Source: Flavobacterium psychrotrophum
Lineage (GTDB): Bacteria > Bacteroidota > Bacteroidia > Flavobacteriales > Flavobacteriaceae
DNA length: 64,000 bases
Direction of reading: 5' to 3'
Assembly: GCF_003403075.1 (NCBI RefSeq)
Contig: NZ_CP031557.1
Span: 1,612,001-1,676,000 of the forward strand
Below are positions 18,094 through 19,883 of the stretch, piece by piece. Position numbers and translations under genes: made by a program. Under the pieces are notes generated by a model. It had not been told where the DNA came from, searched no databases, and was given only the letters and a program-made list of their open reading frames with translations. Each line of letters starts with the position of its first letter. Position 1 is the first letter of the stretch.

Positions 18094-18444
18094 TTAACCG
18101 CCCACGCGTTTTACTTTATAACCTTCTTTAGCAAGGAAATCCATTATTTTATCCCTGAAATTTCCCTGAATGATGATCTCATTATCTTTCGCCGATCCAC
18201 CTACACCGCATAGCGTTTTTAGCTGCTTGGCAAGCGCTTTAAGGTCATCCTCAGTCCCTTCAAAACCTTTTATAACAGTAGCTACTTTGCCGCCACGGTT
18301 TTTCTTGTCGAGATGGGCTTCCAGTTTTTGCTGGTTAGGGGCAGGGGTTTCCTGCTGCTCGTCGTTATTGTTTAACTCAAAGTCCTTATTGGTTGAAAAT
18401 ACAAACCCGCCAAGACTTTCTAAACTATTTAATTTCTTTCCCAT
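18094..18444 (-). CDS. SUI1/YciH-family translation factor
   Basis: The 116-residue protein has a variable N-terminal half and a C-terminal SUI1 (eIF1-like) domain. The domain is marked by RGGKVATVIKGFEG near residue 50, then LKTLCGVGGSAKDNEIIIQG and a basic YKVKRVGG end. This matches bacterial YciH, which influences start-codon selection and initiation fidelity. The gene lies between the GxxExxY cassette upstream and the nucleoside phosphorylase 14 bases downstream. Confidence 0.92.
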   Translation of the reverse strand: MGKKLNSLESLGGFVFSTNKDFELNNNDEQQETPAPNQQKLEAHLDKKNRGGKVATVIKGFEGTEDDLKALAKQLKTLCGVGGSAKDNEIIIQGNFRDKIMDFLAKEGYKVKRVGG

Positions 18445-18452
18445 ATTTATGA

Positions 18453-18915
18453 TGGAACGCGGATGCCGCGGATTAAGCGGATTTTCACGGATTTATTTAT
18501 TAATATTCTGAAATACTTTTCGCATAAATTCCGGCTTTTTGCCAAAATTCAAAAGTAGTCCAACTTCACATTGTGTACTTCTTAAGTAATTTACTATTTG
18601 ATGCTCAAATTCTTCTGTCAGGTAATCACAAGCTTTAAGCTCTAGAATCACTAGGTCATTTACAATAATATCAGCAAAATAATCTCCAACAGGTATTTCT
18701 TTGTAATATACAGTAATTTTTCGCTGCGCTTCCACACTTAACCCTCTTAATTTTAATTCGTGGAATAGTGCGTTTTGATATACTCTTTCTAAAAAGCCAT
18801 AGCCGAGCTCATTATAAACATCATAAAAAGCTTTTAAAATCTGACCTGTCAATTCTTCGTGTAACATAAATAGAAATCTGTGAAAATCCGCTTAATTCGT
18901 GGCATCCGCGTTCCA
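18453..18915. mobile_element. GxxExxY gene cassette bounded by 42-bp inverted repeats
   Basis: The left arm (18453-18494) and right arm (18874-18915) are inverted copies with 39 of 42 positions identical; all three differences are G in the left arm against A in the right. The arms enclose only the GxxExxY gene, and the left arm overlaps its stop codon by two bases. The unit sits between two minus-strand genes without damaging either. Its arms share the GCCACGAATTA core with the gene-less palindrome at 25252-25322. Mobility is inferred from this structure; no transposase is present. Confidence 0.7.
18493..18867 (-). CDS. GxxExxY protein (PD-(D/E)XK nuclease-like fold)
   Basis: The 124-residue protein carries the family's namesake motif as GFLERVY near residue 24. 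It also carries a nuclease-type core: DYFADII followed by ILELKA (Asp, then ExK, about residues 61-78), the arrangement of PD-(D/E)XK enzymes. The family often occurs in several copies per genome in Bacteroidetes and relatives, and its function is not established. The gene is enclosed by long inverted repeats, so I infer it is cargo of, or agent for, a small mobile cassette. No promoter box is evident inside the arms. Confidence 0.88.
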   Translation of the reverse strand: MLHEELTGQILKAFYDVYNELGYGFLERVYQNALFHELKLRGLSVEAQRKITVYYKEIPVGDYFADIIVNDLVILELKACDYLTEEFEHQIVNYLRSTQCEVGLLLNFGKKPEFMRKVFQNINK

Positions 18916-18932
18916 TTAATCTTTATTGCATA

Positions 18933-19883
18933 TTACTTCTTAATCAATCCAAGCTCCACAAGTCTTTCATACAAAAACTCCCCTGCGGTAATGTCTTCAT
19001 ATAACTTAGGATGTTCTGCATCAATACAGTTCTCAAGACAATCCAGTTTCATTTCACTAACCGGGTGCATAAAGAACGGAATAGAATATCTTGATGTGCC
19101 CCATAACTCACGTGGTGGGTTAACCACCTGGTGTATTGTCGATTTTAGCCTGTTATTAGTATGGCGGCTTAGCATATCGCCTACATTTATAACAAGTTCG
19201 TCAGGTTCAGCTATGGCGTCTATCCATTGTCCATCATGGTTTTGTACCTGCAGGCCGCGCCCCTGCGCGCCCATAAGCAGGGTTATAAGGTTGATGTCGC
19301 CATGCGCTGCTGCGCGTACAGCATTATCAGGTTCAGAGGTAATAGGAGGGTAGTGGATAGGGCGCAGTATGCTATTGCCTTCAAGTGCATATTTGTCAAA
19401 ATACAATTCATCCAACCCTAGGTACAACGCTAATGCACGCAGCACATAGATACCCGTTTTTTCGAGCATCTGGTAGGCTTCTTTACCTACAGCATTGAAA
19501 TTAGCAAGCTCATTAACAGTTACATTTTCAGGATATTCACCTGCCCTGGCAGAGCCTTCGTTAAGGTATTGGCCAAAATGCCAAAACTCTTTAAGGTCGC
19601 CTTCTTTCCGGCCTTTGGCGTGTTCTTTACCAAAGGAAACATAGCCGCGCTGGCCACCAATACCCGGAATTTCATATTGTTCCTTAACCTCAAGCGGCAG
19701 GTTAAAAAAGTTACGCACTTCACCATACAGGCTGTCTACCAGCGTATCGTTTAGAAAATGCCCTTTTAATGCCACAAAACCTATATCTTCATAGGCCTTT
19801 CCGATTTCATTTACAAATTTTTGCTTGCGTTCCGGTTCACCCGAAAGGAAATCACGCAGATCCACACTGGGAATGTTTTGCAT
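18933..19883 (-). CDS. Isopenicillin N synthase-like Fe(II)/2-oxoglutarate oxygenase
   Basis: The 316-residue protein has the DIOX_N domain at the start (VDLRDFLSG...FVNEIGKAYEDIGFVAL). A double-stranded beta-helix follows, with HGDINLITLLMG near residue 195 (iron ligands His and Asp), STIHQVVNP near residue 252 (third ligand His) and RYSIPFFMHP, whose Arg binds the 2-oxoglutarate carboxylate. The family hydroxylates or oxidises small molecules; the substrate here is unknown. Such proteins are commonly annotated 'isopenicillin N synthase family' but there is no beta-lactam gene context. It is transcribed alone from a good -7 box. Confidence 0.9.
   Translation of the reverse strand: MQNIPSVDLRDFLSGEPERKQKFVNEIGKAYEDIGFVALKGHFLNDTLVDSLYGEVRNFFNLPLEVKEQYEIPGIGGQRGYVSFGKEHAKGRKEGDLKEFWHFGQYLNEGSARAGEYPENVTVNELANFNAVGKEAYQMLEKTGIYVLRALALYLGLDELYFDKYALEGNSILRPIHYPPITSEPDNAVRAAAHGDINLITLLMGAQGRGLQVQNHDGQWIDAIAEPDELVINVGDMLSRHTNNRLKSTIHQVVNPPRELWGTSRYSIPFFMHPVSEMKLDCLENCIDAEHPKLYEDITAGEFLYERLVELGLIKK

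Follow-up and report, generated by a model that had tools for sequence, protein, structure and literature searches.

A GxxExxY gene framed by its own dispersed, clade-specific repeats recurs across Flavobacterium genomes

We analysed a window of 64,000 nucleotides from Flavobacterium psychrotrophum (NZ_CP031557.1, positions 1,612,001 to 1,676,000 of the forward strand), and coordinates without a contig prefix refer to this whole stretch. An inverted-repeat search recovered two arms of 43 nt that are 93% complementary (40/43) and lie 379 nt apart (18452-18494 and 18874-18916), that is, the pair given as 39/42 in the preliminary description plus one base. As stated there, every arm difference opposes G to A (three mismatches, read from the sequence). 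The same description had placed a GxxExxY frame as the sole content between the arms; indeed, no other open reading frame (ORF) of at least 80 amino acids was found besides this 124-codon frame. The whole cassette spans 465 nt, and the locus comprises the following features.

18094 to 18444, minus strand: downstream neighbour, a SUI1/YciH-like gene (116 aa), the second landmark of the site.
18452 to 18494, plus strand: arm at the 3' end of the gene, outside-inwards ATGGAA plus four 7-bp units (inverted-repeat search, unit rule).
18458-18464, 18467-18473, 18476-18482 and 18486-18492, plus strand: units of the 3'-end arm, with spacers of 2, 2 and 3 nt.
18493 to 18867, minus strand: GxxExxY/PDDEXK_3 protein of 124 aa (ORF, profile matches, conserved residues, AlphaFold2 model).
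18874 to 18916, minus strand: arm at the 5' end of the gene, four units (inverted-repeat search).
18910-18904, 18901-18895, 18892-18886 and 18882-18876, minus strand: units of the 5'-end arm, read on that strand.
18933 to 19883, minus strand: upstream neighbour, a 2OG-Fe(II) oxygenase-like gene of 316 aa, used as conserved landmark when comparing the site between species.

The stop codon of the GxxExxY gene shares 2 nt with the 3'-end arm, and the 5'-end arm stops 6 nt ahead of the start codon. Local alignment of the two flanks scored 75, compared with 21 for the best of 20 shuffles. Each arm consists of ATGGAA followed by four 7-bp units, which in one of them read CGCGGAT, CGCGGAT, AGCGGAT and CACGGAT, and the short spacers place a GAT every 9-10 bp. 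Several unit positions vary mostly between G and A over ten Flavobacterium species at this site, in agreement with the G-versus-A differences described for the window arms.

Profile searches identified the encoded protein as a clear member of the GxxExxY/PDDEXK_3 family, with 131.6 bits to TIGR04256 (cut-off 35) and 136.7 bits to PF13366 (cut-off 22), and matched it to no family besides. The PD-(D/E)XK-like core (an Asp, then ExK) proposed in the preliminary description is borne out by the PF13366 match and by D66, E76 and K78, which, like E27, are each kept in 189-190 of 190 aligned relatives; the protein thus carries the D...ExK signature of the PD-(D/E)XK superfamily. A structure search with its AlphaFold2 model (mean pLDDT 93.9) retrieved lambda exonuclease, LHK-Exo and SSO0001, the last of which we take to be Cas4, as the nearest solved folds, with weak scores (TM-score on the query 0.46-0.58 over the first 12 matches; best E-value 1.3e-3). 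These nucleases, while closest to the model, differ from it in sharing just 10-20% identity and in being 1.6-1.8 times its length, and a sequence search of solved structures yielded a single match (E 0.37). Together, the confident model, the weak likeness to nuclease folds and the conservation of E27, D66, E76 and K78 lead us to propose a nuclease that would act on its own repeats. Selection on GxxExxY is strongly purifying, with dN far below dS (e.g., 0.074/1.22). To our knowledge, neither an enzyme activity of GxxExxY proteins nor a role for this widespread family has been described. In the accessible text of PMC8934634, the name GxxExxY occurs once, labelling a gene near a reverse transcriptase, and PMC12085832 also contains the word. 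In the literature searched, outside whose scope lay most subscription papers and all bioRxiv preprints, we found no description of arms flanking GxxExxY genes.

A genus-wide search found GxxExxY genes in 161 of 199 sampled Flavobacterium genomes (one per species), at 1 to 12 copies each. Loci were scored as armed when an inverted score of at least 30 was reached within 200 nt of the gene, with thresholds set by eye. The 133 genus loci fetched are a non-random draw of 130 of the best-scoring places plus three from the window's own genome. Some species were present as named and unnamed duplicates (e.g., L269 and L202), and the set of relatives of the window protein (the clade loci) consisted of the named copies plus L001, L276, L279 and L289. 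Short flanks left out three of the 133 genus loci and seven of the 70 clade loci. Such arms were evident at 89/130 genus loci and at 32/63 relatives of the window protein, compared with 0/126 and 0/59, respectively, 400 nt further out and with 12/244 for other genes in the fetched loci. The recurrence of armed GxxExxY genes predicted at the outset was therefore confirmed. Relatives 50-87% identical to the window protein occur in Bacteroidota, Deltaproteobacteria, Nitrospinota, several candidate phyla and archaea. When flanks of 300 nt were scored, loci in Desulfobacteraceae (L225), Geobacteraceae (L234), Nitrospinota (L224, L262) and Ca. Magasanikbacteria (L233) reached 30, as did loci of Bacteroidota and Ignavibacteria. 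None of the six scorable archaeal loci did so (range 17 to 26), and arms in archaea are therefore not established. In the window genome, paired arms frame two of the four GxxExxY genes; those devoid of them lie at C1:74433-74762 (L065) and C1:3338455-3338805 (L062), the latter with two direct CGCAAAG-type repeats upstream.

The arms also exist as dispersed copies. BLAST with the window arm revealed four more chromosomal copies, 82-89% identical over 41-47 nt, and the outer 11-mer of the arm has 20 exact copies in the chromosome, the two window arms included, versus one for the reversed control. The preliminary description had held that arms found nowhere else in the genome would argue against a mobile element, and this is not what the genome shows. 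Seventeen of the 18 places outside the window cassette are extragenic, that is, mainly outside ORFs of at least 100 codons, which cover 0.83 of the same loci; at one of these 17 (L045), the 11-mer stands alone with no repeat body around it. Alignment shows a nearby inverted partner at two of the 18 places, and a motif search adds one more. Of 62 repeats collected from several genomes, 47 have a gap of at least 8 nt separating unit two from unit three, and a perfect stem of at least 4 pairs is present in 28 of them, versus 8.5% in shuffles; this collection also contains repeats adjacent to clade genes (L338, L340) as well as multiple copies from a single genome, which are not independent. The stem letters differ from repeat to repeat (TTCGC/GCGAA, TTTAC/GTAAA, TTTGC/GCAAA). 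Folding of single arms, the window arm among them, was no better than that of shuffles over the four stretches used, one of which (L043) held part of the repeat only. Some repeats form inverted pairs without a gene or tandem runs, and a direct tandem run of near-identical GAT-type repeats at G013:C4:402350-402900 (L337) suggests recent local amplification.

Arms are matched to the gene that they frame. When each arm was compared with all possible partners, its own partner had a mean rank fraction of 0.14 in the genus and 0.22 in the clade, with 0.5 expected, and ranked top in 24/130 and 15/63 loci, respectively. Units end either in GAT or in AAG/GAG, with the consensus CRCRGAT in the window clade and CRCNRAG in the AAG/GAG clades. 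We placed this unit type on a tree of 190 proteins (14 of the 204 located having been left out for length, stops or duplication), of which the 124 with an arm score of at least 28 and a clear type could be labelled (51 GAT, 73 AAG/GAG). A single change, the minimum, explains the distribution, while 200 shuffles needed at least 33. Within the genus, the more alike two proteins are, the more alike are their arms (Mantel r 0.67, p 0.0005, n=91). Both unit types coexist in at least ten genomes (G059, G079, G096, G102, G105, G109, G112, G179, G183 and G197), as well as in the window genome, which carries them at the window gene and at L064. Between the own arms of the 122 loci scoring at least 30, units agree at 1919/2099 positions versus 541/733 for spacers; own-versus-cross identity of spacers was set aside, since the cross pairs had been picked by score. 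In the aligned GxxExxY proteins, positions 7, 10, 29, 33, 93 and 101 separate the GAT-unit from the AAG/GAG-unit proteins (e.g., N93 versus T93), and the residues there are candidates for unit recognition on the basis of the alignment.

Repeat number follows the presence of the gene. The gene of the window's clade was detected in 79 of the 199 genomes (E 1e-30 or better), with one match in 66 of them and two or three in the remaining 13. After subtraction of two arms per gene, the median number of GAT-type repeats was 10 in these 79 genomes versus 1 in the 120 without a clade gene (Mann-Whitney p 3e-11, in a test that ignores host relatedness), and at least ten such repeats were counted in 42/79 versus 19/120 genomes. 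The difference was significant in three of the four genome-size classes. Similarly, the median for CGCAAAG-type repeats, again ignoring host relatedness, was 7 in the 161 genomes with any GxxExxY gene versus 0 in the 38 without, and zero matches were scored in 17/161 versus 26/38 of them. When phylogeny was taken into account, using 37 genomes placed on an oxygenase-gene tree, 2.8 independent pairs favoured the association versus 0.3 against, too few for significance. G191, with 50 GAT-type repeats and no clade gene, counts on the other side; exceptions of this kind either argue against strict dependence or reflect repeats that persist after gene loss.

We then followed the cassette at its own site between species. 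Of the 30 genus loci most similar to the window in the oxygenase gene, 8, counting the window itself, carry it between that gene and SUI1. Decayed forms occur at the same site, with an early stop in the gene (L076, L210) or one arm kept (L082), and in L273 (G243) the gene body is deleted and both arms are retained, which is an intermediate between the cassette and a gene-free inverted pair. At this site, L274 (G224) has no cassette but another repeat, patterned TTGCGAGGAG...GAAGCAATC. Among 11 species at the site, identity at fourfold positions was 0.37 for GxxExxY and 0.41 for the oxygenase. Upstream arms from ten of them, L289 having been left out because a hairpin insert prevents gapless alignment, were nonetheless 0.71 identical without gaps, compared with 0.26 after shuffling. 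With gaps, upstream arms reached 0.75 (shuffled, 0.55), the 40 nt outside the upstream arm 0.60, and downstream arms 0.81 in the 7/11 species where an anchor located them; the lack of an anchor match for the downstream arm in the other 4/11 species at this site counts against the reading proposed below. Since fourfold sites are saturated yet the arms are conserved, the arms are constrained in place rather than left over from recent insertions. The shared site and the similar fourfold saturation also lead us to infer vertical inheritance. Identities of the oxygenase and GxxExxY are weakly congruent (Mantel r 0.31, p 0.09, 11 loci), and some transfer may have occurred. Gene and arms in the same place in distant genera had been named in the preliminary description as the mark of static inheritance; this is partly seen, within the genus, where several species share the oxygenase/SUI1 site, and distant taxa carry the gene in other contexts.

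We propose, at about even chances, that the cassette is a REPtron-like unit, that is, a mostly single-copy PD-(D/E)XK nuclease gene with its own extragenic repeats. This reading draws on the arms at GxxExxY loci, the rank of own partners, the sorting of unit type by clade and the Mantel link between arms and proteins, along with the extragenic solo copies, the copy number that tracks a mostly single gene, the constraint on arms and the small hairpins. Against it we count the 41/130 genus loci and 31/63 clade relatives that score below 30, the two unarmed GxxExxY genes of the window genome and the archaeal loci below that score, as well as the 19/120 genomes with ten or more GAT-type repeats but no clade gene, the folding of single arms, the want of a new insertion or recently moved cassette among the sites and pairs compared, the small phylogeny-aware test and the choice of best-scoring genus loci. 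The GxxExxY product would most likely bind the phased 7-bp units and nick or cleave there. Over long times, this action could spread the short repeats, by copying or moving them, to further extragenic sites, and the copy with the gene would mostly stay put and be inherited.

The comparison with REPtrons is close in layout. According to the available portion of PMC6006769, each type of repeat generally has a single full-length tnpA-REP gene, which REPs often flank; these repeats are dispersed between genes, their types track the enzyme subclass, and the unit does not appear to transpose. The portion of PMC8049555 available describes RAYTs as single-copy and vertically inherited, with more REPINs in the E. 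coli genomes that hold the gene. As in those units, to the extent that these portions describe them, we found mostly one gene flanked by copies of its own repeat, which is dispersed and extragenic and whose unit type follows the protein clade. However, REPtrons encode a HuH-Y transposase and have hairpin repeats with a conserved tetranucleotide, the cassette encodes a PD-(D/E)XK enzyme, and the window arms are tandem units of ~7 bp without a clear palindrome, unlike many other copies and some gene-bearing arms (L289, L340), which do contain small hairpins. Given the absence of a HuH enzyme, the cassette would work like a REPtron without being a member of that class.

A regulatory role accounts for part of the same evidence. 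The arms could be binding sites through which GxxExxY itself or another host protein controls its own gene and the genes adjacent to solo copies, with no mobility at all. Operators would fit with arms that adjoin both ends of the reading frame and stay conserved in place, with the extragenic position of solo copies and with a unit type that tracks the protein clade. Nevertheless, an operator would not require a further complete arm, inverted, at the gene's 3' end, and both the gene-free inverted pairs and tandem copies and the near-invariant catalytic residues argue against this possibility, which we consider rather improbable.

Alternatively, the arms could pair in the transcript and the resulting stem be removed by RNase III, as in the S23 intervening sequence. 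The available text of PMC4990558 describes this element of 23S rRNA, a known case of an ORF inside long terminal inverted repeats, as 428 nt long with terminal inverted repeats of 28 bp, which resembles the 465-nt cassette in size and layout. S23 genes of the window genome and the genus carry such arms too. In the four-helix-bundle family TIGR02436 (S23), 26/35 loci reached an arm score of 30, versus 0/35 further out (36 loci were given and 35 located), and the own partner was the best of all in 25 loci, drawn from the own genome and the genus and with AT-rich units. Six of the eight TIGR02436 genes in the window genome (L066-L073; e.g., C1:2393138-2393458) score at least 30, and their arms are tandem AT-rich units of ~7-9 bp whose sequence changes by locus. 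The cassette differs from the intervening sequence in encoding another protein and in lying between two protein genes rather than in 23S rRNA; it is not a member of that class. Mismatches that stay wobble-paired in the coding-strand RNA are not in excess (111 versus 143). With no sign of selection for RNA pairing on the cassette arms, it is probably the DNA, not an RNA stem, that selection keeps. Moreover, copies without a nearby inverted partner predominate in the window genome, and pairing alone needs no clade-tied tandem units. An RNA-hairpin role of the arms is unlikely.

An equally low probability attaches to an autonomous transposon, in which a transposase-like GxxExxY nuclease would move the whole cassette by its terminal arms. 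Terminal inverted repeats with no other gene inside are what such an element would have, and the 67 clade loci fall into 41 context groups, although flanks of up to 2 kb, some of them short, add singletons to this number. The flanks are unrelated in 54/472 pairs at 80-90% protein identity and in 502/878 at 70-80%. In contrast, all 104 pairs at 90% identity or above share at least one flank, and none lies in wholly unrelated surroundings, which indicates that the gene-bearing cassette moves rarely; copy-versus-copy comparisons within the 13/79 genomes with two or three clade genes were left out of this analysis. Neither target duplication nor clean excision was found at the oxygenase/SUI1 sites read, where divergence could hide a short duplication, and in the site and pair comparisons we saw neither a fresh insertion nor an empty site with a duplication, nor a cassette that had moved recently. 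Recent whole-cassette transposition was accordingly rejected for these 104 pairs, and the recent copies in new sites with target duplications that mark insertion sequences were not seen. The self-mobilising cassette envisaged in the preliminary description thus stands as to the recurrent cassette and its dispersed arms and falls short as to recent movement and target duplication.

We give still less weight to a defence or conflict nuclease, by which GxxExxY would cut foreign DNA and the arms would mark self or control the enzyme. A small nuclease with a patchy distribution, losses and strong purifying selection could serve in conflict, but the window protein matched no PADLOC or PHROGs family, and no partner gene lies between the arms. 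Furthermore, no match was found in 50,697 phage records, and matches were found in 8 of 72,556 plasmid records and at one viral-contig locus; carriage by phages or plasmids, being nearly nil in these records, was rejected. Finally, that dispersed generic genome repeats should stand beside the gene by accident or as relics is very improbable, chance arms being ruled out by the far-flank (0/126), other-gene (12/244) and shuffle controls, and the single change of unit type on the protein tree and the conservation of arms despite saturated fourfold sites arguing likewise.

A small GIY-YIG gene of the window genome (C1:563055-563270, L372) is flanked by inverted repeats that differ in kind (24 nt at 100%, 44 nt at 80%), and a solo copy of the window arm (C1:562571) is found ~0.5 kb away. 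We tentatively suggest, with rather less confidence than an even chance would warrant, that GxxExxY proteins act in trans as the enzymes of a nuclease-repeat class not described before, PD-(D/E)XK "REPtrons" whose repeats of phased units co-diverge with them, and that S23 and perhaps GIY-YIG genes follow the same design. This class would extend over several bacterial phyla; in archaeal genomes, the gene is known and the arms are not yet.

Bacterial genomes contain many short repeats without a known maker, and REP/RAYT is the main worked case of repeats with a known enzyme. GxxExxY would add another enzyme family, unrelated to the first, whose link to its own repeats shows in where they lie, in a unit type specific to the protein clade and in their joint occurrence across genomes. 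A family present in 161 of the 199 sampled genomes of the genus would thereby gain a testable function, and the origin of the repeats would itself become testable. The correspondence between unit type and protein clade offers biochemistry an ordered protein-DNA code, and the widespread GxxExxY family gains a specific, testable partner. If the proposal is true, a large share of the unexplained short repeats of Bacteroidota would belong to enzyme-repeat pairs of this kind.
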